Shown in pieces: positions 30,801 to 51,577 of a stretch of DNA of 64,000 nucleotides. The stretch comes from Protoeuglena noctilucae (lineage: Eukaryota; Chlorophyta; Pedinophyceae; Marsupiomonadales; Marsupiomonadaceae): the NCBI GenBank assembly GCA_958009085.1, contig OY253672.1, positions 868,001-932,000 of the forward strand, written 5' to 3'. Below the pieces are notes generated by a model. It did not search any database. It saw nothing but the letters and a program-made list of their open reading frames with translations, and was not told the DNA's origin. The translations under genes were made by a program, and so were the position numbers. Position 1 is the stretch's first letter; every line of letters begins with the position of its first letter.

Positions 30801-32870
30801 GGTAAGGTACACGCATCGTGAGATGCATCGGCCCTTGATGAAGGCCTGCTGGCTGAGGGGGATGATGCGTTGGAGGACGGGGCGTAGCCGGGAGTTGAGG
30901 ACCTTAGCGAGGACGCGGTAGACCACGTCATTGACTGAGATGGGCCGGAAGTCCGAGGGCTTGCAGTCCGTGGCTTTGGGGAGCTTAGGAATGAGGGTAA
31001 CGGTGCTGTTGAGGAAGCAGGCAGGCATGAAACCCGTCTGATGGATGGTGTTGAGGAGGAGAGTGAGGAGAGGAGCGTAGAGGTGGGCGTAGCGTTGGTA
31101 CAGGCCAGGCGGCAGGCCCATGGGCACCGTGGCGCTGTCAGGCTTGAAAGAGTGGATGGCCGCGAGGACCTCTTCTGTAGTGATGGTGGCATCAATGCTC
31201 TGCTGCTCCTGGTCAGTGAGCGTGCGCCCAGAGTTCTGGAGGACCTCCAGCACGTGGTGCTGAGCAGCTGGATTGCGGGGTCCGGGGCGCCCCACTGTCT
31301 CAAAGTGGTCCACAAGGGTATCCTCGACCAGGGCCGGTTCGGAGAGGAGCTGGCCGTCAGCGTCTCTGACGCTGGTGACTGGCGGGGAGGGCTTATCTCT
31401 GTCAGGCTGGAGGGCATGGGGGAGGGCCGAGGCTGGCACATCAAAGGACCGGGTTTTGTTCTGCCGGTCGAGGTTTGCGAGGGCATGTTGGTAGTAGTCG
31501 AGGATTTGGGACCAGAACGAAGTGGCGTCTTCGCCGTCACGCACTGCTGCAAAGTACTGCTCCCGCAGAAGCCGCAGCTGCTGCTTCCGCTGGTTGATGT
31601 ACTGGGACTGGTGTGCGTACCAGTGTCGGGCAATCTCCTGGATGGCATTGGCTGTCTGCTGAACCCAGCGCTTGGCGGTGCCGGGGGGAGCGGTGGGCCC
31701 GGGGTGGGCCAGGATGGCAGTGGACACAGCAGCCTCCTGCAGAGGCTCGACCTGCTGGCGGATCTCGTCCACAAGGAAGGACGCGTGCGGGTGGATGTTG
31801 GCGGGGTGCCGACGAGAGGTCCGGGGAGTGTCACGCAGGAAAATGTACACGGGCGCATGGTCAGAGAGGGCGATGTTGGCAGGGTGGACGCGAGCGGTGG
31901 CATCAGAGCATTCCGTGCGGAGGGCAACGGGCTGGTCCCGAGGGACGTAGAAACGGTCAAGTCGGTTCTTCCATGACTTGTCATGGGCCATGTCCCGGCG
32001 CGTGGGGACTGCAAATGGCTTGTTGTGGTCCTGCTCCCCGGCATCAATGAGGCCCAGGACGTCGATTTGGGCTTGCAGCTTCTTTCGCAGGGTGGTCTGC
32101 ACCTCAGAGGTGGACTGGTGGTTCGAGGATGAGGCTGCCATGTCGGCTGCGAGGACCATGTTCCAGTCCCCACCCATGAGGACCAGGCCGAGTTCGTGGG
32201 ATGCGAGGCAGTCAGGGAGGAGGGTGGAAAGGACGTAGTCTTTGTCAGCGGCGTCTTGGGGCATGTACACGTTGACGAGGGTGTAGTGACGGCTGGCCAC
32301 TTCGACATCAAGCCGGGCCACGAAGCCAGTGAGGCGGGCAGTGTCAGGTTCGGTCCAGGTGTGGAGGAGGTGGGAGCCAGGCTGGTTGCAAACGAGGATG
32401 GCCACCCCAGCCCGATGGGCTGAGGGCCCCTTGCGCCACACGTGGTGGCTGAGGCGCGCGAGGGACGCAAATGCGGCAGGGGGCTGATCCAGCTCAGTCT
32501 TGAGCTCTTGAAGGAAGACAAAGGCAGCGGGGGGAGCCAGCCATGTGTGGGGGTGTGCCTGGATGAGGCCAAGCAGCGCCTCCTGTTTCATGAGAAAGTT
32601 ACCATTGAGGTTGAGAGTGAGGGCAGTGAGGTTGGCCAGGCCTGGAGAGTGAGGCGGAATCGCCGGAGCCGGCCTTGCGGCCTGAGGTCGTGAGACGTTG
32701 GCCAGCGGTCGTTTAGACCGATTGGGGGCAGGTGCTACGAGCTGCGGCTGAGCTGGAGAGAACCCGGCCTGGAAGGGTTGGCCCTGGTCGCAAGCCCCCA
32801 CGGGTGCGGATGTATCGGAGGAAGGGGCCTGAATACGCAGGCGCTTTGCTGTGCTACGTGTTGTCGCCAT
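27873..32870 (-). mobile_element. Full-length APE-type non-LTR retrotransposon (LINE)
   Basis: Minus-strand element with one intact long ORF, a 3' UTR of about 180 bp and a 3' poly(A) tail, seen as 15 T at 27873-27887 on the plus strand. The minimum span is given; the 5' end lies somewhere beyond 32870 and could not be fixed, since no target-site duplication of the bases at 27850-27872 is visible near 33000-33500. It is inserted in the space between the Dicer start (27777, same strand) and the small heat-shock gene (33885, opposite strand). Only one copy is in this window. The tail and undamaged ORF suggest recent insertion. Confidence 0.88.
28068..32870 (-). CDS. LINE polyprotein: AP endonuclease, reverse transcriptase and zinc knuckle
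   Basis: Uninterrupted 1,600-codon ORF starting at the ATG at 32870. The N-terminal 75 residues are basic and Pro-rich. An APE-like endonuclease spans about residues 80-350: LTLNLNG, FLQELK, GVAILV, VNVYMP, GGDWNM and LSDHAPVYIF are its family blocks, including the catalytic Glu, Asp and Asp-His. The reverse transcriptase covers about 630-920: FRPISVND, FNDFAKAFDTVD, GVRQGCPLAP and QFADDTEFV, whose Asp pair is the catalytic core. A C-terminal CPLC...H...C zinc knuckle near residue 1390 (zf-RVT type) resembles plant and algal L1-like elements. No separate ORF1 or gag is seen. I saw no frameshift or stop, so the enzyme may be functional. The clade (L1-like versus Tx1 or others) needs a tree. 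Confidence 0.93.
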   Translation of the reverse strand: MATTRSTAKRLRIQAPSSDTSAPVGACDQGQPFQAGFSPAQPQLVAPAPNRSKRPLANVSRPQAARPAPAIPPHSPGLANLTALTLNLNGNFLMKQEALLGLIQAHPHTWLAPPAAFVFLQELKTELDQPPAAFASLARLSHHVWRKGPSAHRAGVAILVCNQPGSHLLHTWTEPDTARLTGFVARLDVEVASRHYTLVNVYMPQDAADKDYVLSTLLPDCLASHELGLVLMGGDWNMVLAADMAASSSNHQSTSEVQTTLRKKLQAQIDVLGLIDAGEQDHNKPFAVPTRRDMAHDKSWKNRLDRFYVPRDQPVALRTECSDATARVHPANIALSDHAPVYIFLRDTPRTSRRHPANIHPHASFLVDEIRQQVEPLQEAAVSTAILAHPGPTAPPGTAKRWVQQTANAIQEIARHWYAHQSQYINQRKQQLRLLREQYFAAVRDGEDATSFWSQILDYYQHALANLDRQNKTRSFDVPASALPHALQPDRDKPSPPVTSVRDADGQLLSEPALVEDTLVDHFETVGRPGPRNPAAQHHVLEVLQNSGRTLTDQEQQSIDATITTEEVLAAIHSFKPDSATVPMGLPPGLYQRYAHLYAPLLTLLLNTIHQTGFMPACFLNSTVTLIPKLPKATDCKPSDFRPISVNDVVYRVLAKVLNSRLRPVLQRIIPLSQQAFIKGRCISRCVYLTCATLELLDQSDEGCFIIFNDFAKAFDTVDRPFLRRILETLRFGETFCTWFDIMHTPSATYQLKLGRGLSRGYNVSTGVRQGCPLAPSLFILVALALHELVASNPDIKGLPVPGPNKPPLYAFRTDKRLAQESLISQFADDTEFVQATVQSMHNLFQALDTFHQATGLRSNPAKTGIIPAGKWNTDPAALHQHLTAAQAHGLDSLVYDHAQQRWMLDGYWITPPGGEPAAPVKYLGTLMGPTGIVPTDYSSFVASIYTQLLRLRPHNIPLLHRWKIVKTFVLSRLIYATTHCPMDFSPGKPGALLLRYIQRYVLTESPKTQRIPPEIDRNELYHPVSRGGLQAQHVPFHQAALRFKMIQLHASGADPLFSNAIHQHLVRSLKYKATVKCDGQRYETTLSIPVGPHICALTAKDWAELTPTPLIRDLFSATSMFPATQLLPPPQPYASPPTLNDLWVHLTPMLRAPLLFNPHNPLSFPANFVHSRSTDPSHQRLLLDATARQIWAAIIPILEPLQRAFPLVSSLIIPRAHNGRLGLKDPDDVLTTLMVPALGSYMARQIRLDFVSALSAHLSINSPGHPGLPANAWNDVRGPTVLSVFPHDFIHRISGFRAQGWSQYFSMHGHSLGPTYHPLASITPQAHHRAFVVAKYSTDKPCQRLLEDSSPHLAHAATAALARPQANPAHLATASMAWLAVTDRLPTYSDLQGKPCPLCLERHGTSLHDLAESCRTAQVVWHSVFQSLPPLSWQYLNRCLAHPPVGPSGLCPDRGTPTALLFRFGATHASSDLLRSPAWRLLWSETLHAIITARRYWRTGHPLPGAPPMLLLDLPDAPAWTRAARIVSYASHRISSAMACHHRLSSPAAASMLQLLHDPSLPHGVFFKAISVTQNLFSSFPPLPPPQPPPNRRVPLEPG

Positions 32871-33884
32871 TTTTGTACTGCAAGAGGACTGATTCGGCGA
32901 AAGATAGCGGCGCCGTCCGGAGAGAGATAAGGAGAAGAGGCGTTTGTTGTTCGGAAAGCCAGCAGGAGAGCCGAGATAGAGTAGCTAACAACGGAGAGTC
33001 GACGGCAAGAGTTGGAGGTCACAACGAGCAAAGCACTTGCTACCGCGGTGATGTCGTTAGGAGAGGAGCACATCGCTTGAAAAAGACGGGTTGGATTTGC
33101 TGCCGCGGGGAGCAGAGGGGGCGATGACGGCAGAGCGTTGTGGTTGGCCTCAGACGCCGGAGTAGAGGGCCAGACAGGCCAGGAGAGGGGCCCAGAGGCC
33201 AAATTGTATTCGAAAAGCGCAACGAGGCGCGGTGTAGTCAAAAGGCGGGTCCCCGGGGGGTCCCCGGGGGTGGGGAGGGGTACGCGCACGCGAGCCCTCC
33301 CCCCCGCCGCCAGGCCGGACGGCACTACCACGCTCTTAAAGAGCATGGTTGTGGCCCGCCGGCCTGGTTGGAAGGCCGCGGCTTGCTCACCTGCCGCACT
33401 CGCCACCGCGCATGCACGTAGCTATGCGGCCAGCGTTCCCAAATTCGCCTTCTCCTCTACCTGCAGGACTCGAGACCAATCTCGACATCAACTGTGTTCT
33501 TACTGTGTTCTTCGTCAAGTCAATGCTCTCCGCACCGTGACACGCGATGGCAACTCTTCAGCTCGGTAGGTCAAGAGCACCGAGTGCCAGCGGCACGCAG
33601 ATTTCTGTTGCCTGTAGACCATTGATGTTTCTCCGCGCATCCATCCTGGGCATTTCCACATCTTCAGGCCTCGGATAGTGGCAGGTAAGGCCTTGGCGTG
33701 GTGTCCGTGGCAGGTGCAGCTGGGGCCTCCCTCGGCAGGTGGGTCCCTGCCCCCGATAATGGCCGCGACAACCCCGGCGGCCTGCGAATGTGCATCCACC
33801 CGTCCATCCAAGGTCACAAACCATGTCAGGCACGCCTCCCTGTGACGCATCCGCAGGGCAGCAAGGACATCACCAACCGCCACC
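32871..33884. other. LINE 5' flank and small heat-shock gene upstream region
   Basis: This holds the undetermined 5' end of the LINE and the promoter side of the small heat-shock gene. A minus frame at 32735-33406 continues across the LINE start but has no domain. No heat-shock element (nGAAn array) was convincingly found by eye. Confidence 0.35.
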
Positions 33885-34784
33885 ATGCGGTCGCTCGCGC
33901 GCCTCAGCCCGATGGCCGTTCGGGCCCCCTGCCAGTCAGCGCAGCAGCGTTTCGGCTCCTCCCTCTCGGTGGCGACGCGGGCGGCGAGTCCGGGCCACGG
34001 TGAGACGACGGGCACTGCAGCACAAAATCATTTCTCACATGGCGCGGCGTCGAAACCCAGCACGCGTTCCCCATGGCGCAGGCGACGGGGGCTCCTCGGA
34101 GAGCGGCTCATTGGAGAGCAGCCAGGAGGGCAAGGCGATGCGCCGCCAGGAGCGCAGCACGCCCCGTCGCCTCGGCCTGCAGAGCCCCGAGGACCTCTTT
34201 CAGCGCGAGCTGGACACAATCCGGTCGGTGCTGGACCTGTGGTCGCGGGGCCCGAGCCCCACGGGTCTGCTGCGGCCATTCGACATCGTCCGCGACCTGG
34301 CGGGCGAGACGGAGCCGTTTGGCGACCTTGGCTCGCTGGCCATGAACATCGCGGAGGACGAGGAGGCGTTCACGGTCACCGCGGATGTGCCCGGGCTCGA
34401 GCGCAAGGACGTCCACGTCCAGCTCCACCCGGACGGCACGCTCGAGCTGTGGGGGGAGCGGCGCACCGAGACCAAGAGAGAGAGTGCCCGCATGCACGTG
34501 CAGGAGAGGCACTTTGGCCGATTCAGGCGAGCCGCGTGGAGGGTATTGCCGCCAGCTGGGCCTGGCACGCGTGGTTTTACCGTGACGTGCTGCGGGGTGA
34601 GTTGATGGGCCTCGTCACCCGCCGTCTCCGCAGCCGGGAAGTGATGCTGCCCAAGGACCGCATCCAGGGCGACAAGATCAAGGCGTTTATGCGCAACGGC
34701 GTACTCACGTTGACGGTGCCCAAGGTCCCTGGGGAGGCGCACCAAGCGCAGGCGAAGGACATCCCCATTGAGGTCGGGGAGTGA
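33885..34784 (+). CDS. Small heat-shock protein (Hsp20 / alpha-crystallin), organelle-targeted
   Basis: ATP-independent chaperone that holds unfolding proteins during stress. Three exons: 33885-33999, 34082-34526 and 34634-34784, giving 236 residues. The start sits in CCACCATGC. The first 40 residues (MRSLARLSPMAVRAPCQSAQ) are Arg/Ser/Ala-rich with no acids, as in a mitochondrial or plastid presequence. The alpha-crystallin domain runs from about residue 110: FTVTADVPGLERKDVHVQL, ELWGERR, GRFSREVMLP across the splice site, and FMRNGVLTLTVPK, the conserved GVL motif. The second intron (34527-34633) has a GC donor, proven by the GRF|SREVMLP join. Mitochondrion and plastid cannot be told apart here. 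The gene is divergent from Dicer, with the LINE between them. Confidence 0.9.
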   Translation: MRSLARLSPMAVRAPCQSAQQRFGSSLSVATRAASPGHGETTGTAAQNHFSHGAASKPSTRSPWRRRRGLLGERLIGEQPGGQGDAPPGAQHAPSPRPAEPRGPLSARAGHNPVGAGPVVAGPEPHGSAAAIRHRPRPGGRDGAVWRPWLAGHEHRGGRGGVHGHRGCARARAQGRPRPAPPGRHARAVGGAAHRDQERECPHARAGEALWPIQASRVEGIAASWAWHAWFYRDVLRGELMGLVTRRLRSREVMLPKDRIQGDKIKAFMRNGVLTLTVPKVPGEAHQAQAKDIPIEVGE

Positions 34785-34820
34785 GCAAGACCTGGCAGGT
34801 CTGATGAGCATGTATCGATA

Positions 34821-34902
34821 GACATAGAGATGAATTGAATCGTATGTCGCGCCAATCATCGATGAGACATAGAGATGAATTGAATTGTATGCTGTGCCAA
34901 TC
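34821..34902. repeat. Two-copy 44-bp-spaced direct repeat
   Basis: The 38-bp unit starting GACATAGAGATGAATTGAAT at 34821 recurs at 34865 with about five differences, all in the second half. It is AT-rich against a GC-rich background and lies in the 150-bp space between two converging stop codons. Confidence 0.75.
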
Positions 34903-34936
34903 ACAAGTCACGGAAGAATCTGTACGGTGTCGCAAA

Positions 34937-35889
34937 TCACGGTGCGTGCGGCCCCCGTGCCATGATAGCACCGGCAGTGGCGGCACAAAGCTGGGCAACC
35001 CAAATGGCTACCCGGCGGGGTAACTTCTCGTCGTCGCGTTCGGGGATTCCATAGGCATCTTGGTCTCGCTCCACCCTTGCCTTGTAGCTCACCCGCGCCG
35101 CCTCCATGGTCGCAGGCCACACGGCAAAAGAGCTCCGCAGCTCGACTGGCACGCCGCGACCGAAGACGAACGACGACGCCATCCTGAAGAAGCTCTCACG
35201 TGCGTCGGTAAAGCTGGCGTGCAAGGTCTCCAGGTCCTGCATCACATGGACAGGGGGGCAACACCACATCGCCGATGTCCGCAAAATGACTGCGAATATG
35301 ACGCCCAACCTTTTGGGCGCAATTGGCGCCTTCGGATGGCGCCCCGCTTTCCGCACCTGGGCACCCACATAAGCCCGCAGCCACTGCCCGGCCAGCCACA
35401 GCCCGAGGCTGCTCAGGGCCACCGAGGCTTCCTTGTTGTGCTCCTCGCTGCCGAGCAGATTTCGGTGCGGAAGCAGCTTCTCCAGGGCGAGGAGGAGGCA
35501 GGTGCGGGCGTGGGGGTGGTCGTGGAACACCTCCCAGAGCAGGTCCATATCCAGCCCCCTCAGATAAAGCATGAAGCAAAAGAATATGTCGCCCTCGTTT
35601 ACATGGATGCGCTGGTGGTCGCCTGCGGGACGGGGGGGAGCGGCTTCGGGTCCGTCCCTGGGGTACACCGGAGGACCGGCCCCGACGAGGCCGACCGGCG
35701 CGCGGACGCCCCCCGCTCTGCGCTCTTTCCACTTATCGCGGTATGTCGTGCCCGGGATGCCAAGCAGCCTGCCCGGCGCTGCGGGCCCGCGAGCCCGGCG
35801 CCCAAGTTTGCGGGCTCTGAAGGTGTTGCGGGCTCCTCACCGGGCTGATGGCCCTCGCCCTGCCCAATCATCTCCGCGTGATCCTTCAT
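34937..35889 (-). CDS. Unknown, mostly helical protein
   Basis: I do not recognise this gene. A short first exon with ATG at 35889 (35889-35841) joins in phase to a long reading from 35622 to the stop at 34937. The product of about 245 residues starts MKDHAEMIGQGEGHQP. It looks folded and helical: GDIFFCFMLYLRGLDMDLLW, LLLALEKLLPHRNLLG, LGLWLAGQWLRAYVG, then a Phe/Arg-rich part and a hydrophobic end (VAIWVAQLCAATAGAIM) that could be a membrane segment. The middle part around 35230-35330 (MWCCPPVHVMQ) may hide a further small intron ending at the CAG near 35240. No family motif was identified. Confidence 0.5.
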
Positions 35890-37619
35890 GATTCGTCCAT
35901 GCAGCGAGAGACTGCGACAGAAGGCGAATCACGGGGGTCGTGCCGAGGCGGGGACCGAATGCCCTGTCCGCAGAGATGCACTCCCCGCAGCCGGCGTTTT
36001 GGACTATGACACGGCGGCGGTCGCGACGGGCGCACAGGGCGCGCGAGGACGCGGGGAGCCAAGGCCAGGGCAAAACTGACCCGTAAGTTGCAGAGCTCGG
36101 CACGGCTTGGAAATATGCGGCAATCAATGAGAAGCGCGCACGGTCTGGCCTCCGAAAGCGTCGCGTTGCAACGCCTGAAACTCAATCCGCCTGGCATCTG
36201 CTGGCCTGCGGGTGCGAGCAACGAGCTACGGCGTCGCGTCTCTGCTGCCGAGCTACACGCGCACGCAGCTCCGGTCCGTCGGAAGCGAGCCCTCACGGCT
36301 CGCCTGAGCATTACGGCCGCGGCGCATGCCGGCAGGGTCCAGCGGGCCTGCTTCGCGCCGGCACAGCTGCTGGACGCGCCGTGCGATTGTATGTTTCAGA
36401 ACGCTCCCCGGGGAGAGGTGGCGACGCCTCCCCGCGGCTCAATACGCTCGGTGCGGCCGCGACAGCGGCGTAGGGCTGGGGCGCCATGATGTGGAGGCTA
36501 TGGCTTTCGCTTCTCAGCGATCTCGCGCACTGGCGACGTGATGGTCGACAGGAACCGGCTGGCAGGCTTTGATGTGGAAAAGCTGTGCCAAGGGTGGGGC
36601 CGTGCCTGGGTCACGAACCAGGGGTTTAGGGACCACGATCGCTGGAAAGCTGCAGGGCTTCGCTGGGTGTGCGCGACGCTAGTGGCGTTCTAGACTAGCA
36701 GGCAAATCGCAAGAATCGAATCCGGAGCGCATGTGCCGTGCGCTGAGCATGGGTCAGCACGTCTGACATAATCAGAAACTGGGCGGACCAGCGGTCCGTC
36801 CGTGTTGGGGGGTGCAACTCCTCCCGCCGAGGCATCTTCAGCGGCCGTTCTCCGCGTCCATGTAGCGCTTCGAGTGTGCTGGACCGCTCGTGCTCTGCGG
36901 CACCTGTGCGTGGCCTGGCAGCCCGAGCAGTCGGGGACCGCGGACTGCGCAAGTGCGAGCTGGCGCAGGCGGACGGTTTGCACGTGCCAGGGCGTCGTGT
37001 GGGCGGGGAGAGAGGCGCCGCCGTCCGTGCTTCGCAGGTGGTGGTTTGAAGTACCTCCGGGTTGGGCGGGGTCTGTGAGCTGTCGTCGGGGCTGCAGGGG
37101 TGAGATGTTCATCGTGTCATTTGCGCTTCGGCGCCGCAAACGCGCGCGAGGGCGCGGTCGGAGGCCATTGTGCTATCGGAGCACGGTGGGGTCGCACCGG
37201 CTGCCCGCGCGCGCCGGTCCTGAGCGCCTAGTTGCGCGACGATGTTGCAAGGGGTGCCCCGGAGCGCCCGTGGGGCGGCCCTCCGACGAGGGCCACCTCG
37301 TCCCTGCGTCTCCGCGCGCCCCCCGGGCCCCTTGCGGTTGCATCGTCCCATTGCCGAGATTTCTACGTCGTTCGTGGCCCCTAGAGTGCGCCGCAGCTGT
37401 CGCCCCGCAAGCACGGGGGACGTGCCGCGTGATGTATCTCCGAGCACGCCCTCGCCACTCCGCCGCGCACCCGGCGCCCGCAAGAGCGGCGTTTGGGAGC
37501 TGCTTGGGTCCCGCGCGGCCGGGGCGGCAGCGCCCGGGGCCGCCACGTCGAGCGAGATTCCTTGCGCTCTCCGCAGGCGCCCCGTGCTGGCCAGCGGCCC
37601 GCGCTGGAGTCACTCGTGC
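35890..37619. other. Long divergent intergenic region, no gene recognised
   Basis: About 1.7 kb between outward-facing starts. Open frames exist on both strands (for example 36802-37659 plus) but are Arg/Ala/Cys-rich with no domain and look like chance frames. I looked for tRNA-like GGTTCGA boxes and saw none. Confidence 0.4.
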
Positions 37620-40600
37620 ATGCGGTCGGGAGAGAGAGAGGAGGATCGCGACGGCCTGAACGTCCTGGCCGACGCTGCGGCCGTCGGCAATGACTCGGCC
37701 GGGGCCTCGAGGGCCGCTGCGGGAGAGGATGCGGTGAGCGAGGAGGGGTCTCTGTCCGGTGCAGCCGGGGCGCGGGCCCGCCGGAGCGGCACCCGGGGAG
37801 CCCGGCGGGGCGCCATCGTGCCGCCAGACTGAGATGAGCCCGCACGGCCGGTTCGGCCGCCCGGCTTCGCGCGGCAGCGACGGGTGCCGTCGGGTCCTCT
37901 CCGCAGGCGTTCCCAGCGCCGAGCCTGACGGACCTCGTGGAGTACAAGGTCCTCCAGACGGGCGCGGATGTGCTGGAGCTCAAGTACACGAGCCAGGACA
38001 AGCAGGTGCGAGGGACTTGCGGGAGCGCGGCGCTGCTGGGACGCGCGGGTGCGAGTCGGACCGGCGGAGATTACCGGCGCTTGCAGATCAACATTAACGA
38101 GGTGGCGTCCCTGGAGTGGGGCGGGCTCTCGGGGCTAGGGGGCGAGGCGACCATCGTGTGGCGGGGGCAGCGGTTCGTGGACCCCAACCGTTTCGCGAGG
38201 TTCGTGTACCAGGTCAAGCTGAGGGAGCTGAAGCAGCAGATGGCCGGGCGCGAGAGCGGGGGCGACCCGGGCGGGGTGACCGAGGTCAGCCGTGTCAAGG
38301 GCTGGCAGACGGTCAAGGACGCGGTGTCCAAGCAGTCACTGGAGGCGAGTGGTTTGCCGGGGCGAGGGGCGCGCCCATCTCACGATCATCCCCGCCGACG
38401 TGCTACGTGCTCCCGCCCGTCCGTGCTCTGCAGAAGCTGCGGGGAGACCTGAAGCACAAGCTCGCGAGGGAGCTGGCGACCCCCGCCAAGTCGACCGGGG
38501 GCGCCAAGTCCCGCGGCCGGTCTCCGGCTACGCGGGCCCAGGACGAGGAGGAGGAAGCACCCACGTGGACACTGACGGGTGCGGGCGGGGCGGTCAACCC
38601 GCCTGCGCATCCACGGCCCGCTGGGGCTGGGGTTTCTGATCGCCCTTGGTTTACGTGCGGACGCAGGGACCGACGTGAGAGAGGACCCCATCCTGAGGCG
38701 GCTGCTATGCGCACATGACGGGTGCACGAGCGTGGCCAAGTTTGGCGCAGATGGGGGGCCCCCACGGCACTGCGCGGCGCACCGGGGCGACGGGAACGTC
38801 TTGTCGGACTCGCAGCTGTGCAGCGAGGGCGACTGCCTGGCCGTGGCGCTGTGGGGAGCGCCGGGAGGGCCGGCGACGTGCTGCAGGGCGCACCGGCGAG
38901 AGGACATGGTCCTAGCGTCGGACCGGCTCTGCGCGCGGGACGGCTGCAAGCGGCCCGCCACGCACGGGGACGCCGGCGACGTGCCGCAGCACTGCGCGGA
39001 GCACGGGTGGATGGCGGGCGGGGTGGAGGTGACGCTGCCCCTGGCCGAGGCTTCGGGGGAGAGCAAGGCGTGCGGCTGCGACGGCTGCGATAACCTGGCG
39101 ACAGTGGGAAGGCCGGGAGTGGGCCGGGAGCGCTGCGAGCTCCACATGGAAGAGGGCATGCTGAGTTGGTGCTCGTACGCGGCCTGCCCGCGGATGGCGG
39201 AGGGCATGCCGCCCATTTGCCGTCTGCACTGGGTCCAGCAGGAGCGCTGGTTCCCCGAGGACGGCTCGGATGGGGAGGAGAAGGCGGGAGGTGAGACCGC
39301 AGAGGGGTTCATAACGGACGACGCAATGTGCGTCTGGAAAGCGAGATTCGCCGCCCCGTGGGACCGAAAGCGGGCATGTGATTGCTATCACGCTTACTCA
39401 TAGACCACTAGAAATGAATGGATAGATGCCGGGGCCCGTCCGTCGCAAGCTGTGTGTGGTGCTGTGCGCCATTACTGTGCTTCGGGCTCCCGCGCGCACT
39501 CGCTCGCTCGCTGGCATCTAGCGGCCCCGCGGTTCCCGCAGATGCTGGCGATGGTCAGGAGGAGGAGGTTACCGGCGGGGCGGAGGCCGCGGAGGAGGCG
39601 CGGCCGGGGGAGGCGGCGGAGTCGCAAGGAGCGTGGCTGGGACCCATCGCGGTTTCGCGCAACAGCATCCGGAACCCGAATCTTAAGATGAAGTACACGA
39701 TGCCAGCGCGGGGAGAGCAGTTTATGGCGATCCAGGCCGCGGTGCGGAAGGCCCTGCACAAGCCGGCCAGCTACCGCGTGACGAGTCCGTCGTTCACGGT
39801 CGGCCACAGCCTCCGCTGGAGCCCCGCGGAGCTCAAGAAGCACGCCACGGAGGTGCTGTCGAGCAGCCCGGACGTCAAAGCCGCGTTCGAGACACTTTAC
39901 GCGGCCTGCAAAGGAGGCATCGAGGACGCCATCAAGGCGGCCCTGGGCGGGTGAGTGGCAGCCGTGCAGGGACACAAGTGGGTCGCAGCGACGACGTTGG
40001 TGGGGACCCGTCCCTCACCAGGCGCTGGAGATGCGCCACAGCGCTCTTTTGTGATTTGTGTGTTGATGTGTCTGGACTCCCTCTCGCAGATGGGAGGCTG
40101 CGGTGAAGAGGTCGCTGGTGGAGGCGGCGCAGACGCACAAGCCCGTCCTGGTGGGCGCGCGGTGTGATGAGGGGAACTGCACGCGCCCTCCGAGGTATGG
40201 GGCCGAGGGCCAGCTGCCGACGCGATGCGTGCTGCACAAGCAGCCGGGGCAGGTGGAGCTGAGGGGCAGGTGCGCAGAGCCGGGGACCTGGCCCACCTGC
40301 GGGGAGTCCCCCTGCACGAGACGGGCCACGTTCAACAAGCCTGGGGTGCTGCCGCCCGTCGCCTGCGCGCTGCACAAGACAGCCGGCATGGAGCTCGTGG
40401 TCCGGCTGAGCAAGGCCCCGAGGTGCGGATACGGCGACTGGCGAGCAATCTGCGCGCCGGGCGGGAGCTGGGCAGACGGGCATGCACATGCCTGGCAAGA
40501 GACACGATTGCACCAGACAGTACACAGCAGCTTCCTCTCTGTCTTGCCCGCAGCTCTGCGCCGCGCGCGGGGGCGTCTGCTGCGCACGCAGGCGCGAAGG

Positions 40601-43236
40601 GACCGAAGGTGGAGGTGCGGGGTGGCTTGGCTGCGGTGGGCCAGCCCGCGCCCCAGGCCCTGGCGCCTGCCGTCGCTGACGTGGCGATGGCGGAGGGGGA
40701 CGCCGTAGACCGCGCGGGCGCAGCCGCGGCTGGGGTTGCAGGCGGCGATGGTCAGGCGGTGGCGGTGGCGCCATTCCCGGTCGCACCGGGGGCGGCTCTG
40801 GGGCCGGCGCTGGGCAAACGGCCGGCGGAGGGCAACGCGGCGGACGAGGCGGAGAGGAAGAGAGCGCGGAGCGCGACACAGTTCGACCTGCCGGACACCG
40901 CGCTGGCGGCCGGCGCGCCCGGGCCGGACGCGCCCGCGCAGGAGGAGCGGGCGGAGCTGGGGGCGGCTCCCAAGCTGCCCGCGCCCACGCGTATGCAGAC
41001 GCGGGGCCGCCACGTGGTCATCCCCGGGGTGAAGCGGGTCGAGAAGGTGGACACGGAGGCGGGGGTGGGCCCGCTGCAGAGAGGGCCGCTGCCAGGCGGG
41101 GCTGGCCAGGGCGCCACGCCTGGGGTGGACCCGGGGGTGCCTGTGCCCATCGCGCCCCTCGCCCCCAACGCGCGGCCCGTGCTGCCGATCGGCGGGGAAG
41201 GTGAGGCCGCGCGTACAGGCTTCGCGGCTTTGGCATAGTTCTGTTGTCCTGAGCCACGCCGACCACGCCTTAGGTCACTGTCGAGAACGCATGAAGCTGC
41301 ACCTCAAGACCTGGTGCTCGTTCGCCCTTTGCCTGCAGGGTTCGTGGTGGGGATGGAAGCGGACGACGACGAGGACTTTGGTGACGGCAGGGCCGTGCCG
41401 GTGGTCCCTCGCCCTCCGGCCTACACGCTCAGTGAGTGTCATTGCCAGGCTGGGACGCGTCTTCGCATCGGCGATGCCTGGGCCGTGTTGCGATCGCGTA
41501 ATTCTGATTCTTTCGTGGCTAGTGGCGCTGGCCATGTCGCCGACGAAGGGTGAAAGGGAGGGAGGGCTTGCACACGTGCCGAGGGAAGGGACCTTACAAC
41601 CTGATGCGCTCTCACCACCTCATAACTCGTCGACCCCTCGCCACCCCCGCAGTGCGCAACGACGAGACGGGCAAGCCCATCGAGAACATCAACGAGATCA
41701 TCAAGCTCGTCACCATGCAGATGCCCCACCGCAACGTCCTCGGGAACGACGAGGAGCGGCAGGCCGCAGATCGTGCTCTGGACAAGGCCATTGCATTCCT
41801 CGTGTCGCTCCTCGTCGGATACGTCCTCAACTCGGTGGTGAGCGCTCGGGCCGCCCCGCAGCTGATTTGAAGCACACCTGTGCGCGTCATGTGTCTCGCA
41901 CCCTTGTCAAATGCCTTGTGGCCCACACCGCCTGCATGGCAGTGGCCCACACCACCTGCATGGCAATGGCCCCGGACACGGCAAGGTGGCTGGGAGTAGT
42001 ACCTTTGCCGCAGTAAAGCACTTTCTGACTCTTTGTTCTCGCCTGTCGCCCCCCGCAGTACCCCAGCGGGCTCGTGTGGAAGAGCCTCCCGACCGTGCTG
42101 CGGCGGCGGGTGTCGACGTTCCTGCAGGGCCTGCCCGAGGTGCTCACGCGCGAGGCCAAGTCCACCCGCAAGATCGAGCAGTCGAAGCCGGAGATGTTCG
42201 ACGCCGCCATGGACATGCTGGGTCTGCCGTCCTGGGAGCGCATGGTGGACATCCTGACCGACACGCAGCAGCGGGGGCGCGCGCGGCGCAACCTTCTCTC
42301 CATCTTCAACGGCTGGAAGGACGAGCTGGAGCGGCAGGGGCAGATGCGGGGGGTGTTCGAGTCGAGGGTGAGGGAGGTCGTGCACCGACTGGTCACCACC
42401 ATCGCCGAGCAGGCCAAGAGGTCCTACGCCAACTCCCCGGGGCACTACGCCGCCACCATGAGGCTCCTGGCCTCCACGGCCGCCTCGCAGGCGCCCCCGC
42501 CCAAGGCCAGCCGGGCGGGTGAGTCGAGGGCTGTGAGGATGAGGACGTCCCACAACACAGGCAGGCTGGTTGTGATGCGGGGTTCGTTTCAATTCGATCG
42601 TTGCGCAAACTAAGCAGTGGGGCAGGCGCACCTCCTCGCGACAGCACGTGTGCTAACAGTATGTTGGCGCTTTTATGCTCTCCTGCCGCAGGGGGCCGAG
42701 CGCCCAGGGAGGCCCGCAGCAACCGCGCCGCGCGCTCGACCACCCCGACGGCCGCCCGCGGAGGCGCCAACGGATCCCGGCGCCGCGCCTCGTCCCCGGC
42801 CAAGGACCCAGCCCCAGCCGAGCCGCACGAGGGCCCCCCCGCGGCCGGGTTCAGCGACGCCTGGCAGCCGCAGTTCCTCGACGCCATCGCCACCATGCCC
42901 ATGCCGGGCTTCCCGGGTGCCCCGCGCATCGACGCCACCTTCCCGCCCTTCCCGCTGACCTTCCCCCGCCAGCCGCCGCCCGGGCTCGGCATGCCGCCCC
43001 GGCCCTGGGGCCCGCCGCCCCACTGGCCTGGTGCCCCTTGGATGCCTTTCGGCATAGGCCCTTTCGTGTCCACTGAGCCCATCGGCCTGCGCCGCAATAC
43101 CCTAGACGACCTCGCCCACGTGGCCAGCCAGGACGTGTCAGAGTCTCCCATGGAGGCGAAGAAGGCGCTGCGGAACGCGCCGGCCTCCGCGCCCGTCGGG
43201 ATGGGCCACGGCATGGCAGTGGTGAGTGCGGTGTGA
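37620..43236 (+). CDS. EsV-1-7 repeat protein (seven Cys/His repeats)
   Basis: Exons in phase: 37620-37733, 37907-38005, 38087-38344, 38434-38578, 38667-39290, 39542-39950, 40090-40422, 40554-41200, 41339-41431, 41653-41837, 42059-42518 and 42692-43221 or to the stop at 43236; about 1,300 residues. Exon 5 carries five Cys/His repeats (LCAHDGCTSVAKFG, then C-x2-H; LCSEGDC; LCARDGC; CGCDGC; a shortened CSYAAC copy) and exon 7 two more (RCDEGNC, CGESPC). Spacing is C-x4-C-x15/16-C-x2-H, with x12 to the next Leu-Cys in the best copies. This matches the EsV-1-7 motif first seen in Ectocarpus virus EsV-1 and in the brown-algal regulator IMMEDIATE UPRIGHT. The linker carries a QININEV-type folded segment before the repeats. 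After them come a Pro/Ala/Gly-rich region, a helical block (exons 10-11) and a Pro-rich tail. The role is unknown; metal binding is likely. The intron at 38345-38433 has a GC donor. Confidence 0.75.
41918..41965. repeat. 24-bp tandem duplication in an intron
   Basis: GTGGCCCACACCGCCTGCAT... (24 bp) is followed directly by a second copy with one difference, within the intron between exons 10 and 11 of the EsV-1-7 gene. Confidence 0.8.
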
Positions 43237-43538
43237 GAGAAGGGTCGTAGACGTGGGGGGTCTGTCAAGGGTTCTGGATGCTCGGGCAGGCACTGCAGGG
43301 GTTCTGTTTATGTCGAGGCATGCGCTGGTGCGGAGATGGTGCTGCAGGGGCGGTGCAGCAGGGGCCTGTTAAGGTGCCGGGCTTGGTTTCTGAGCTGTTG
43401 ATTCGACGGTGGTCCATTGATGGTTCATTACGCCTTAACGACTTTTAGTCACCTCTCTGCGTCTCGCTCACCACGTCAGCCACCTCTGTGCGCGTTGCTT
43501 ACCACGACTGAACACAGAAATCTCCGCCGTCCCCACAG

Positions 43539-46500
43539 GGTGTCGGGCCGAGGGACGTATGGGCAGGGACGGACGACATGACCCCATGGCGCATCGGGGA
43601 GCCCCCAGAGCTGGTGACGGCCCTCGCCGTGTCCTCGGCGGTCCTCGGTTCCGGCAGCCAGAAGGGATCGGTGTGGCTGTGGGACCTGCACGGGCACGGG
43701 GCTCCCGAGGAGTTGACTGGGCACGCGGGGCCCGTGTCTGTCGTCGCCTTTGCGGCCAACGGGGCGCTGGTGCTCTCCGGCAGCGCGGACGGGTCCCTGC
43801 GCGTCTGGACCGTGGCTTCCAAGCGGCCTGTGCTCACGGTGTCGGCCCAGGTGGGGCCCATCACCTGCATGGCGGTGCGGGAGGCGGCCGACGGGGGCAG
43901 GGCGATCGTCGCAATCGGGGGCACGTCCGGCAAGGTGGAGGGGCGGCGGCTGTTCTACAAGCCGGGTCAGGTCGAGAACGCCACGATTGAGCTGGCCTTC
44001 GCGGCGTGGGAGGCGCACGCGGGGCGGGTGGTGGCTGTGACGTGGCACGGGGACTCGACGCTGGTGACGGCGGGCGCGGACACGGCGATCCGCGCGTGGC
44101 GGCACCCGACGAAGCGATCGGACTGCGTCACGGTGCACGGCTCGGGGACCGCCGTGACGGCCTTGGCGGGCAGCACGGCCCCGGGGTTCGGAGTGCTGGT
44201 GGGCGATGCGTCGGGGGCCATTTACGCCATCGAGGGGCTGCCGGACGCGCCGCGCCTCAAGGCCCTCGACCTGACCTGCCGCAAGGGCGTGGCTGCGCTG
44301 GCCGTGGACTCCCAGGGCCGGTCTGTCCTGGCGGGGGCGCGCGGGCGGGTGGCGGCGTGCGTGTACGAATGGACGGGCGCGGACGCGGCGGGCTCGGCGA
44401 GCCTGGAGCTCACGGCGGGCCCCGCGCAGGGTGCGGTGTCGCTGGACGAAACGCTGTGCGTGGCGATCAGCGCGGACGGGCAGTGGGTGGCGCTGAGCAG
44501 CAAGCTCGAGCCGGGGCAGGTGTTCGTGCAGGAATTACACAGCGGGGAGCGGCGGACGCTTAGCTTGAGTCCCGCGATGGGCGCCCGGGCCCAGGGGGCG
44601 TGGGGCGCGGGCGTGGCGCATGCGCCTGGGGGCGACTTCGTGCTGTCGCTGAATCTGGAGGACCGGGAGAGTCGGGAGCAGCTCGCGCGGGCCAGCGGCG
44701 CAGCGGCGCAGCGTTTCCAAGTGAGCCAGTGTGTCGCAGGGTGTTGTCAGGGTGTTGCCAGGCTGGCATGGGGAACGCCGTGCGATGCCCAGGCAGGGCG
44801 ACCGGGTGCCCAGAGCGGGGCCCGCCATCGCATATAATACATGGATGCTCGTTCTCGTTAGGCCAATTTCTTGTGTAGTATCAGATGGAGTGCCTTTAAC
44901 GCTACGTACATCATGGCGTGGCCGCACGGTCCAACGGCAGTCCACGCACGCACCCCCGCAGGACTTAGCGTTTTCAGATGACGTGGCTGATTTCCGTATC
45001 ACTGGCAAGAGTCTCTCCAGGATCGCCGAGGCGGTGTCCGTCCTCTGCAAGAGCATGGTGCGATGCTGCTAAGCTTTACCTCGCACATCCATGCCTGCAC
45101 CGCGCATGGCTCGCCCACACTCCCCCACTCCTGCCGCTCTCCCCGCAGTCATTCTCACGCGTCAGCGGGCAGCTGGTCGTGCCCAGCAGCCGCGGGGCTT
45201 GCCTCTTCAGGGACGTGAACAGAACGACAGTGAGTGCGCCTTGCATCTCACGTCACTGCGATGACCCGGACCCCTCCTTTGCCCATCCGTGCCCTCTAGC
45301 ATGCCTTCTCTCATCTGCCACCATCGCATGACTGCACCTGTCTGCGCCCCAAGTGACACTTCGCCTGCCTACCGCCGCAGCTACCCTCGCTGGTGCGGCT
45401 GCAAGTCAACGCAGCGGATGCAGAGACTTCCGTCCACTTCGGCATCTCCACGCGCAACGACGCGAGCGCCACCGCGAGCGCCCCGCAGCAGCTGGGGAGC
45501 CTGATGGCCGCCTTTGCGCAGCGCATGTCCGCGGTAGTCACGGCGAGGGCCGCACGCCGCGCTACGTGCTTTGACCGTGTCGTCACGTTTCTCTTGCACT
45601 GACCATACCATCACGTCCATCTAGCATACATGAGCATCCATGAGCCATCTTACTGGATCGTTGTTGATCTATGGCCCATGCGCGTACGCTTGGCGGGGTG
45701 GCCGCCATGTCTCATTGCAGGCAGCATGACGCACAACCCTGCCCGCTTCCGTGCGCAGGAAGAGGTGCGGACGCAGACGTACAGGGTGGACGGCGCGGGG
45801 GACAGCATGTGGACGTTGGAAGGGTCCGGGTCGGGGTGGGGAACAAAGCCGGCGCCCACGCTGCCAGCCAACCAAAAGGTAAAGGACACAGAGAAAATGA
45901 CGAAAGGGATGAGCGAGGGAGACGGAACGGGGGCGCGGGGGGGCTCAGAGCCGGTGATTATGCGGGAGGGTGGTGCGGGTGCCGGTGCGGGTGGCATTGT
46001 TGGTGGCGGTGCAGGGATCCCCCTCACAGAGGGCGAGCGGTGCTTGTTGACATTCCGCCTCGAGGAAGGCCCCGTGGTGACGGAGTTGGTGCGTGTGATG
46101 ACCTTGCTTGACGACCCGACGGGAGAGCTTGTGGTTTTGGAAAGAGAGGCGCCATCAACAGATGTAGGAGACCTGGTGGTGTCGGTGAGCGGCAGCCTGC
46201 GTTTCAAGACGGGTGGCAGGGCCGCCTGGGTGTGGGGAGGGAGGTAGTTTTGCTATGGACGAGCCCGGAGGGTTGCTGGGCGGATGGGCATGTGGCGCAG
46301 GTGGCGGTTGCTGGGGTGTGGCTGCAGGTCCCCATGCCTCGCTGCCTCCTCCACGCTTGCAGGTCTTGCGGGCAGACATAACGAAAGTAAAAAACAAGGA
46401 CAACTTTGTGGCGGAGGCAAGGGAGAAAGCGGCCGAGCCACCTATCCCGCAGCAGGCCACCGTTGTGGCATTCAAAGATTCAAACGTGCTCCTCAAGCTG

Positions 46501-47088
46501 GGCCAGGGGCGGGGCAAAGTCGTATCAGTGAGTCTGCGTGGCCGTTGCCCATGCTTTTTCCCCATGCTGGCTCACGGGTGGGGCGTACGGGCAGGGGGTA
46601 GTACAGGCGGGGCGTCGGGCCAAGGCTGCAGCAGAGGCGTCAAATGAGTCCCTGTGTTCCCTCCCTCGCAGGTGCCGCTGGAGTGGATTCGGGTGGTGAC
46701 GGACCCCTCTCATCCCGAACTGGAGAGCGTTATGATGCCGCTGTTGCAGAGATTCCGGGACATGCACAAGCGAGACCCCGAATGGCAAGAGAAGTTTGAG
46801 CGGTGGGACCTGGGGGCGTGGTGGTACAACCGCAAGCTGCACTTGGGCGAGAATCCCGCGGCGCCCCCGAGCAAGGAGGCACTGGCGCGGCGATCCCAGC
46901 GAAATGACACCATGCTGACGGCGCCGGTGGGGGCGATGGGGCTGCGCGACGGAGAGACGCGGACGGTACTTGTCGAAGAGCACACCGTGGAGGGCGCGCA
47001 TGCCTGTCCAGGCCGAGGTGACGAGATGATGGGGGGAGGGCGTGGGAGTGCAAGGTTTTATACGCGCTCCGGTCCAGTTTCGGAATGA
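43539..47088 (+). CDS. WD40-repeat protein, possibly the C-terminal half of the EsV-1-7 gene
   Basis: Exons in phase: 43539-44720, 44962-45057, 45149-45229, 45381-45533, 45759-46229, 46363-46527 and 46672-47088, about 855 residues. The large first exon is a beta-propeller: SQKGSVWLWDL, HAGPVSVVAF, LVLSGSADGSLRVW, HAGRVVAVTW and LVTAGADTAIRAW are WD-type blades, and weaker blades follow. Downstream are short unrecognised exons, a beta-rich domain (GERCLLTFRLEEGPVV, VLEREAPSTDVGDLVVSV), and a C-terminal block with VVAFKDSNVLLKLG and WDLGAWWYNRKLHLG. If this is a separate gene, its ATG is 43578. However, exon 12 of the upstream locus ends at 43221 with a good GTGAGT donor, and the 43539 acceptor joins it in phase with no stop, so a single 2,150-residue protein is equally possible. 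The function is unknown; WD40 propellers are protein-interaction platforms. Confidence 0.7.
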
Positions 47089-47416
47089 CGAGAATGCAGA
47101 CACCACCAATTCGCATGTGCGTTGCTCATTAGAGCGGATTGAAGCCAGCAACGAGTACACTGACAGTACGGCCAATGCATGGAGAGAGTCGAGAGTTCAA
47201 TGCCGTTCATGCGCATGGGGCTCTGGCAGCCAATGCCGAGCGTCTAGACAAAGCTTCAGGCATGGGGTGATGGGGAGAGGGACACGCTGGCAGGCGCAGG
47301 GAGCAGGGAGCATGCACTACGTCGCCACAAGCAGCACGGCAGCGACACGCGTGGGTAAGCCCCCACGACACCCCGTGAATTGAGGCATCGCATTCGATGG
47401 TGCCGCTGCTCACTGC
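47089..47416. other. Convergent 3' region (WD40 gene / TROL-like)
   Basis: Three hundred and thirty bases between converging stop codons. No gene or clear polyadenylation signal was identified. Confidence 0.35.
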
Positions 47417-49917
47417 TCACACCGTCACTAACGCCTTCTCCTTCCACAGCTGCACCAGGCGCTGTGCCGCCTCCTTGCGCTCGCTCAGGCTCTGCAGATG
47501 CCACGCACACAGCACCTGACATCACTGCTTCTCTCTCGCCACGGTCAGCGCCTGGCATCACTGCCCATCTCATCACTGCCCCGCCATCGCCACAATCAGC
47601 GTCTAACCTCCACAGCCCCGCTCTCTCACGCTGCCAGCTGCATGGCGCGTTGTCTGCACAAACACAACTCATTACCCTCACCTTGCTGTTCTCCGTGAAC
47701 GACTCGGAAGTCTCCTCGAAGCTCGCGACGACGGGGGCAGAGGGCTGCACCGCCTCCTTCTCCTCCACCTCCTCAGCCACCACCTTGTCCTCCGTCTTGC
47801 TCTCAGCCTTGTCCTCCATCTTGCTCTCAGCCTTGCTCTCAGCCTTGCTCTCAACCTTGCTCTCCACCTTGTTCTCCACCTTGCTCTCGGGCTTGTTCTC
47901 AGCCTTGCTCGGCACCTGCGCCCATCACATGACCATCATCACCAACGCCTTCCCGTGTCGCCCGGCCCGCTGCACCCTTGCACAGACGCTCCGGTGGCAC
48001 GCATTCCGAAGCCACGTCGGATGCACAGCCAGGGCGCTCGTCTCATGCACAGCCGACGCAGCCCACACGCCACATGCGCCTCTCGCCTCGCTCGCCGTCG
48101 ACTTGCTCCCCTCGTCCAGCAGCGCCTTGGCCACCTTCTTCAAATCCTGGCCCGCCTCGTCCAAAGCCAACTCCTGCCCCACCTTCTGCGCCAACAACCA
48201 CCGAACACAACACCCATCAACCGTGCCCGGCATTGCCGGGCGCTTTAGAGCTCAACGCTGGTCGCTGCAAGCGTTCCTCTTCCCCTGAAAAATGCTCAGT
48301 GCGCTTCCCAACATGGCTACGGCCCTGTGGTTCCGTCCTACCTGCACGAACCGCCCTCGCCACCCCTCTTCACTCGCCTGGATGGCCCCGACCGTCTCCC
48401 GGCGCGTGTCGGCGAAGAGCAGGCGCGTGAAGGCAAGGCGCGCGATGGCGATGGAGCCGATGAGCTCCATGACCGTCTCCATCTCATTGAAGAGAACGAA
48501 CCCCGCGCCCGCCAGCGCCCCCAGGGCCAGGCCACCCTTGGTGAGCGTCGGGGAAGCCTTAAAGTCCTCCGCCAGGTTGTCCATGCCAGACTTGATGTTC
48601 TTCAGGTCCACGCTCGGAAGGCTGCGGCCGAAAACCCAACGGAGGTGAGACGCGGCGACCCATGGGACGTCGCGAGCACAGAGCGCCACCCTTGGCCCAC
48701 ATGGGGTCGCCTCGCAGGCATCCATTAGCGAGCGATGTTCATCAGCAGGCACCTGAAGGTGAAAGGCTCCTTCCACGGCACTCCGGCGCTCTTCCACGCC
48801 TCGGCGCCACCGGAGACGCAGACGACCTGGGTCACGCCCGCCTCCTTGACGGCAGCCTCCGCAGCCTGGCGCGCCAGCTTGCCGTCGTTGTCGAGGATGA
48901 CAACCACCGTATCGGGCTTGACGCGGCGCTTCAGACTGGTGACGAACTGCGGGCGGCGGGTTGAGGGAGCGGCTCAATTCCCGCCCACCTCACCAAGCCG
49001 TGCGTGCTCGGTTGCCGGAGAACGAAATCAGGCGTCAGCTGGTCACCTGCTCGGCGGGGACGACCTTGCCCTTGACCAACTTCGTGAACGGGATGGCCTC
49101 GGGGCTCTTGCGGAGCTGGCGGAGGTCGGGCGAGCCCGTCTTCTTGGCCTGCAAAACACGCCGTGCACGGCGCCGTCGATGCATCCGCCGCTCCGACATG
49201 GCGATCCCGAACGCGCTGAGGACGAATTTGGAGGCTGACGGCGCCGGAAGCGCTCACCTCGGCTAACGAGCGCACATCGACGAGCACGGCCTCAGGCTTT
49301 GCTTTCAGAAGCTCGAAGGCCTTCGAGGAATCGAGGGTCTTTACGGCCGACCCCTTGCTCCGGAAGGCCAAGAAAGCGGCGCCCCCCGCCACGAAGGCCG
49401 CGCCGGCGCCTCCCGCGGCAAGAACCAGCGGGTCCTCCGGCAGCGCGAAGTCGACGGGAGGGAGCTCGGGCTGGGGCTCGGGGACGTCCAGGGACGGCGC
49501 CTCGGAGACCTCGACCGCTACAGGAGATGAGGCAGGCGTCTTGGCTTCGACGGCGACCTCCAGGCGCACGGGTTCCCTGCACCGGCAGACGAGCGCACCA
49601 GAGGTCACCATCATCCGAAACAAACCAGGCGTCCGCGGGCTTTCCGGGGCCCGCGCGAGACAAGGAGGGAGCTTGAACTAGACGAGGCACGATCGGCGAT
49701 CGGCCGCCGCCCCCGTCCGCCGCGACGCTTTTCCCCCAGACCTGCGATAGCCCTTCGCGAGCGCATCGTAGGCGGAGGCGTCGATCGCCAAGGCGGGGCT
49801 GGCCGACAGAAGCACGACTGCCAGGGCGACATCACGGCTCGCGGGGTGCGCGCGCGCGGCGACGCTCGGCCGACTCGCGCGCCCCGGGAGGGACATGCCC
49901 TTCGCCGACAACGCCAT
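47417..49917 (-). CDS. TROL-like thylakoid rhodanese-domain membrane protein
   Basis: Exons: 49917-49742, 49576-49258, 49148-49047, 48946-48753, 48621-48342, 48185-about 48069, 47915-47682 and 47491-47417; about 430 residues. The N-terminus MALSAKGMSLPGRASR looks like a transit peptide. A hydrophobic stretch follows, ending ASPALAID, with an ALA lumen-type cleavage site. Next come a membrane helix (LVLAAGGAGAAFVAGGAAF), then a rhodanese domain: VLVDVRSLAE, TVVVILDNDGKLARQAAE, VVCVSGGAEAWKSAGVPW. Two more hydrophobic segments end LAFTRLLFADTR. This order matches plant TROL, which anchors ferredoxin-NADP reductase at the thylakoid through a C-terminal motif. Here the tail is instead a run of (ESKAESK)-like Lys/Glu/Ser repeats and a helix ending KALVTV. 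The rhodanese loop lacks an obvious active Cys, as expected for TROL-type inactive domains. CAS-like proteins are the alternative. The exon 6 donor is ambiguous. Confidence 0.78.
47718..47912 (-). repeat. Lys/Glu/Ser coding repeat in the TROL-like gene
   Basis: About nine units encoding variants of KVESKAES / KAESKMED, with the nucleotide unit close to AAGGCTGAGAGCAAG on the minus strand. The region is highly charged and probably disordered or a single helix, and is likely to vary in copy number. Confidence 0.8.
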
Positions 49918-50195
49918 CTCTCCGTGCGCACTACGAAGTTCAATCGGAATTTCTAGGCCACGGGGCAGGCGATGCACAGATCCTTCATTAAACCGGAGTT
50001 CTGACGGGAGGGTAAACCCAGTGACCAACAAAGAGCACCCCCGTGGGAATTCATCATCAAGGCTAGGTTGACCGCGCCCACAATGGTCCCGGCGCAAGGG
50101 ATCACGGTCTCGTGGAAACGTGCTGATGGCCCAGCGGCGCACGGCGGCGTCCCCGCGGGAAGCGTGCCGACTCATGTGAAGCAGAAGAGCCTTTT
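49918..50195. promoter_or_regulatory. Short divergent promoter region
   Basis: Two hundred and seventy-eight bases separate the TROL-like ATG from the ATG of the unknown mitochondrial-type protein. The interval must hold both 5' UTRs and is a candidate bidirectional promoter. Confidence 0.4.
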
Positions 50196-51386: not shown

Positions 51387-51577
51387 AGGGTTCAAGCGCT
51401 GCGGCTGGGTCGGTCAACGGGGTCCGGCAAGCAGGACAGGGGATCAAGGAAGCGCATGGGCGCCTGGCGACTACTGGAAATGGTTTTGCCGCAGGCTGCT
51501 GGATAGTGTGAGTGGGACTGAAACCTAAGGAACGCAAGCGGGGCAGGCTGCGTCGCCGCCATCGCCGTGGCGGCTAT

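Follow-up and report, generated by a model that had tools for sequence, protein, structure and literature searches.

EsV-1-7 repeat blocks in a large multi-exon gene of Protoeuglena noctilucae with a probable WD40 part

Two blocks of EsV-1-7 repeats

The chlorophyte Protoeuglena noctilucae has a GC-rich, intron-rich genome, assembled as 26.3 Mb in 26 contigs. A stretch of 64,000 nucleotides (C5:868001-932000, hereafter the window) inside a 1.62 Mb contig contains a large forward-strand gene with two blocks of EsV-1-7 repeats, Cys/His units known chiefly from brown algae and giant viruses, as in IMMEDIATE UPRIGHT (IMM) of Ectocarpus and the EsV-1-7 protein of virus EsV-1. The best hand-spliced model consists of 19 exons (37620-47088, window positions here and below) and predicts a protein of 2138 residues, with a probable WD40 propeller downstream of the repeats.

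Membership of the family is supported by two profiles and by the bare motif. Both repeat-bearing exons pass the Pfam cut-off of 25 bits for PF19114 (EsV_1_7_cys), with 78.2 bits (E 4e-22) for 38576-39400 (+) and 58.9 bits (E 4e-16) for 40067-40708 (+). A repeat profile of our own, compiled from 757 repeats found in 117 other EsV-1-7 proteins, gave 132.7 bits in six domains against the window protein; among 2000 shuffled segments, the highest score was 8.6 bits. When the window is translated in six frames, the motif C-x4-C-x15/16-C-x2-H is found six times, always within exons 5 and 7, whereas none of 30 Markov-shuffled windows contained more than two copies (range 0-2). Judged from sequence, these two exons carry genuine EsV-1-7 repeat blocks in the frame given by the first-pass annotation, whose naming of the family holds well under the profile scoring that it had proposed. 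The copies are as follows.

38708..38782 (+): EsV-1-7 repeat 1; motif, 30.5 bits (own profile)
38819..38893 (+): EsV-1-7 repeat 2; motif, 18.4 bits (own profile)
38930..39004 (+): EsV-1-7 repeat 3; motif, 17.5 bits (own profile)
39071..39145 (+): EsV-1-7 repeat 4; motif, 18.8 bits (own profile)
39170..39229 (+): repeat 5, short relic C-x4-C-x10-C-x2-H; pattern only, no profile domain
40163..40237 (+): EsV-1-7 repeat 6; motif, 26.4 bits (own profile)
40298..40375 (+): EsV-1-7 repeat 7; motif, 27.4 bits (own profile)

Seven copies of the motif, five and two, had been counted in the first pass. The two blocks in two exons stand, but the ligand pattern is found in six of the seven copies (starts 38708, 38819, 38930, 39071, 40163, 40298), leaving six intact repeats. 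The fifth copy (39170-39229) is termed a relic because it has x10 where the other repeats have x15/16, yields zero domains with our profile, and lies where the structure model of exon 5 loses confidence. This model is confident over four repeats, with a predicted local distance difference test (pLDDT) score of ~45 from residue 171 on, the relic being residues 168-187. A likeness of the relic region to Mdm2 (E 0.16) was judged too weak to retain.

PF19114 exceeds its cut-off in at least three places in the assembly: the window gene, C19:21800-22678 and C10:26445-26531. The C19 and C10 genes are near contig ends, at distances of ~22 and ~26 kb. The C19 gene belongs to the same repeat family but has eight similar repeats at constant spacing, whereas the window array is irregular. 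Neighbouring window repeats are 12, 12, 22, and 8 residues apart in exon 5 and 20 apart in exon 7; 12-residue gaps account for two of five, compared with seven of seven in C19. A regular 12-residue spacer between repeats is the published pattern of the EsV-1-7 family. Mean repeat identity is 39% among the six intact window repeats and 81% among the eight of C19, and the window array is therefore either older or less homogenised. Both repeat-bearing exons are phase-symmetric: the introns flanking exon 5, with its four repeats and the relic, are both phase 1, and those flanking exon 7, with its two repeats, are both phase 2. Gain or loss of either exon would therefore leave the frame intact.

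Gene model and the WD40 junction

All 18 introns of the model are GT-AG or GC-AG (one GC) and keep the frame. Exons 1-12 encode an unnamed N-terminal part, the EsV-1-7 arrays, a linker, and Ala/Pro-rich and other parts. The exons and the junction intron are listed below.

37620-37733, 37907-38005, 38087-38344, 38434-38578, 38667-39290, 39542-39950 (+): exons 1-6; in-frame GT/GC-AG, codon score
39542..39950 (+): exon 6, linker between the two arrays; codon score 63.6, coding
40090-40422, 40554-41200, 41339-41431, 41653-41837, 42059-42518, 42692-43221 (+): exons 7-12; in-frame GT/GC-AG, codon score
43222..43538 (+): proposed intron, GTG/GTGAGT ... CCCCACAG/GGT, phase 0; codon score negative in three forward frames
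43539..44720 (+): probable exon 13, WD40; PF00400, codon score 149.7
44962-45057, 45149-45229, 45381-45533, 45759-46184, 46363-46527, 46672-47088 (+): probable C-terminal exons 14-19; in-frame GT-AG, all phase 0

Reading frames were assessed with a leave-one-out codon score, using the introns of the model as background. In 19/19 exons the chosen frame outscores the other two forward frames, and it is positive in 18/19 (exon 15 scores -0.2, exon 14 0.3); exons 1-12 are positive and best in 12/12, which agrees with the frame first proposed for the Cys-rich exons. Fifteen of the 18 introns are negative in all three frames; the exceptions start at 37734, 38006, and 38345 and each have a single frame just above zero (0.10, 0.08, and 0.01 per codon, respectively). 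These codon tests are supportive rather than proof, as the model was picked for openness and the same introns trained the background. The in-frame stretch upstream of ATG 37620 scores -0.17 per codon and is not coding-like, which supports a start at this ATG.

The gene had previously been ended at 43236, the last base of a stop codon, and this end is probably wrong. The stop lies 15 bases into a stretch that opens with the strong donor GTGAGT at 43222. Splicing from this donor to an acceptor whose last base is 43538 would bring in, in phase 0, the open WD40-repeat frame at 43539. The stretch in between (43222-43538) has an intron-like GC of 0.59. PF00400 (WD40) matches the open reading frame 43512-44837 with 54.3 bits in two stretches (cut-off 27), and membership of the gene in this family depends on the proposed fusion. 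Because the donor and acceptor join in phase to the WD40 frame, the EsV-1-7 and WD40 parts are likely to be one gene. The unusual large architecture noted in the first pass is supported on this basis, and the protein is probably larger than was then described.

Alternatively, the locus may hold two neighbouring genes, one for a 1303-residue EsV-1-7 protein with its stop at 43236 and another, for the WD40 part, from ATG 43578. The open frame to the stop and the ATG at 43578 leave room for this arrangement, and both codon scores and GC content at third codon positions (GC3) fall after exon 13, and the introns from the junction onward are all phase 0, which could reflect two origins; these points count against a single gene. 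On the other hand, two genes would leave unexplained that the last 15 bases of the 1303-residue frame open with a strong donor, that the WD40 frame begins with a good acceptor of matching phase, and that the sequence between them resembles an intron in GC and in its negative codon scores in three frames. We consider two genes unlikely. Exons 14-19 have weaker codon scores (2/6 near zero), a GC3 of 0.67-0.86, below most upstream exons, and no Pfam match at E<=0.1. All seven introns from the junction onward are phase 0, while the 11 upstream are mixed, and this run together with the lower downstream GC3 might be the trace of an ancient fusion between two genes.

Repeats aside, the N-terminal part has zero matches at other places in the genome, the linker has zero further matches at E<=1, and the WD40 part matches many other WD40 genes. 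A bipartite stretch resembling a nuclear localisation signal (residues 749-766) was set aside, as 308 of 1000 shuffled proteins also contain one.

Relatives and origin of the repeats

EsV-1-7 repeats are frequently paired with a nuclease. A Vsr/PD-(D/E)XK-like nuclease profile is matched by 103 of the 120 EsV-1-7 proteins examined, and the 2138-residue window model contains neither its signature nor a profile match at E up to 10. Entries in BFVD from Faunusvirus, a cedratvirus, and a pithovirus are EsV-1-7-type endonucleases with arrays of such repeats. The window arrays are like those of this giant-virus type, which differs in having a C-terminal Vsr/PD-(D/E)XK-like domain whose profile and signature find no match in the window protein. 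Compared with the EsV-1-7 family as represented by IMM and the EsV-1 protein, the window protein is set apart by six intact repeats in two separate blocks, a length of 1300-2100 residues, irregular spacing, and a probable WD40 propeller. The TcMar-2_Ec32 transposase of Ectocarpus is described as also adding an EsV-1-7 domain to another functional part (PMC12477816). There the partner is a transposase within a mobile element, whereas here it is probably WD40, with a linker that occurs once in the genome.

The proteins from C19:21800-22678 (L028) and C10:25844-26531 (L029) have a common C-terminal part with 166 of 359 aligned columns identical. It scores 729 between the two and 49 against the window protein, and in the C19 protein it has no Pfam match. 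Six of the eight 500-base bins preceding the C19 array have GC values of 0.43-0.50. A prokaryote-collection contig (L038, RGPS01000284.1), labelled as a Terriglobia metagenome-assembled genome and perhaps mis-binned, carries a gene for a protein related, at 40% identity, to the EsV-1-7 plus nuclease protein P0003.

Single-repeat comparisons do not settle the origin of the array, the repeats being only ~33 residues long. Among the 20 best matches for each of the six repeats (120 in total), 66 are nuclease-type, 43 other, seven from C19, and four labelled brown-algal or eukaryotic, from a pool of 447, 292, 8, and 18, respectively. The last label covers two proteins, one named Sphacelaria and one from EukProt. 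C19 is over-represented among these best matches, though its eight copies are alike. Orthologue searches with residues 1-1303, and with residues 205-720 of a 1353-residue query, each scoring the ~8000 candidates that share most words, found none at E<=1; this is weak evidence of absence, since a distant or split orthologue would be missed and the EsV-1-7 proteins found from C19 were also absent. Viral contigs scanned with the C19 protein, exon 5, P0003, and alignment A1 contained no relative, which is not evidence of absence as BFVD holds such viral proteins. Likewise, structural matches missing from lists were not taken as absence of a fold.

Possible function and genomic setting

The arrangement points to a chromosomal gene that would produce one protein of ~2100 residues, with two EsV-1-7 blocks (four intact repeats and a relic, then two), each in one phase-symmetric exon, followed by Ala/Pro-rich stretches and then a WD40 propeller. 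Each repeat would fold around a single zinc ion with its three Cys and one His as ligands, and the arrays would contact nucleic acid, as suggested mainly by the pairing of the same repeats with a Vsr/EDxHD-like nuclease and with the Ectocarpus transposase. WD40 proteins generally recruit partner proteins, and the propeller may do so here. The whole would then be a nucleic-acid-associated scaffold rather than an enzyme. We give this reading, with zinc-held arrays on nucleic acid and a recruiting propeller in a single protein, an even chance. Repeat identity, reading frame, in-frame splice geometry, and the lack of a nuclease-profile match are observed; zinc and nucleic-acid binding, recruitment, cell location, and the presence of EsV-1-7 and WD40 parts on one transcript are predicted.

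The repeats may instead be a protein-protein interaction module in an ordinary WD40-type adaptor that makes no contact with nucleic acid. We regard this as somewhat doubtful, though a purely protein-binding adaptor stands about level with the nucleic-acid-binding reading; the nuclease-profile matches in 103/120 EsV-1-7 proteins and the EsV-1-7 domain of the transposase fit DNA targeting better. It is very improbable that the gene is a recently acquired viral one, not yet functional in the host. EsV-1-7-type proteins do occur in giant viruses, including Tetraselmis virus 1, but the gene has a GC like the rest of the window, many introns, repeats diverged to 39% identity compared with 81% in C19, a position inside a 1.62 Mb contig, and ordinary neighbours where scanned. 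Two capsid families of nucleocytoplasmic large DNA viruses (NCLDV) gave no match, which carries little weight as the positive controls were also silent. The window gene does not look like a recent viral insert, and its locus looks like ordinary chromosome. Of the transfer from a virus or another alga raised in the first pass, the recent form is disfavoured by introns, GC, and divergence. For the same reasons any transfer would be old. An older one may have taken place, and the best single-repeat matches span all four groups sampled.

If the scaffold reading is extended to the whole family, EsV-1-7 might be a modular nucleic-acid-recognition array, a tentative idea that the published zinc-finger proposal and the transposase fusion make slightly more likely. 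Giant viruses would use the array to aim a Vsr/homing-type nuclease and an Ectocarpus element would use it on its transposase, while in the alga the same array would have become a fixed part of a WD40 scaffold that lacks a nuclease, making a directed adaptor for chromatin or RNA. Brown-algal IMM would be a nuclease-free member of the same kind.

Published accounts describe IMM as an EsV-1-7 protein that controls Ectocarpus development and is of unknown function (PMC7457493), and the families as large in brown algae and rare in other stramenopiles, with possible viral co-option (PMC12993054). Sporophyte-biased genes are enriched in EsV-1-7 genes (PMC6368402). The zinc-finger idea is already published, both for the 90 EsV-1-7 proteins of Ectocarpus, hypothesised to be zinc-finger transcription factors (PMC12629598), and for the N-terminal EsV-1-7 domain of the transposase, perhaps an uncharacterised class of zinc finger (PMC12477816). 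The term WD40 is absent from the main text of PMC12477816, PMC12629598, and PMC6368402, and none was counted for PMC7457493 and PMC12993054, though a description in other papers, including the original one of 2017, is possible. The EsV-1-7 and WD40 combination may be new, none having been found elsewhere in limited searches. Repeats on a probable WD40 scaffold outside brown algae, along with the frequent Vsr-like nuclease pairing, would add support to the zinc-finger proposal, and the window gene is one more case in a family that is patchily distributed.

The gene had also been described as lying next to green-lineage plastid genes, a claim that finds no backing in the three minus-strand frames of 47400-50101, which give no Pfam match at E<=1e-4. 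Elsewhere in the assembly there are two RuBisCO small-subunit genes (C14 and C17), both of which match in two pieces, together with 21 chlorophyll-binding matches, and these by their sequence mark a photosynthetic organism. A RuBisCO small-subunit gene on large, intron-bearing contigs points to a green type of plastid, and a green-type genome is supported by these matches.

Neighbours were scanned upstream over 29000-37701 on both strands, and downstream over 44400-49501 (plus strand and two of three minus frames), 47400-50101 (minus), and 50100-57301 (plus). Upstream, an HSP20/alpha-crystallin match at ~34348-34769 (+) is split over two frames and so probably represents two exons. Further upstream, at ~30267-32621 (-), a reverse transcriptase (PF00078, 84 bits) and Exo_endo_phos (PF03372) lie in one frame, with stops read as X, and resemble a retroelement of the long interspersed nuclear element (LINE) type. 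Downstream, matches to the 26S proteasome subunit RPN2 at ~53702-57298 (+) fall in three frames and so indicate several exons.
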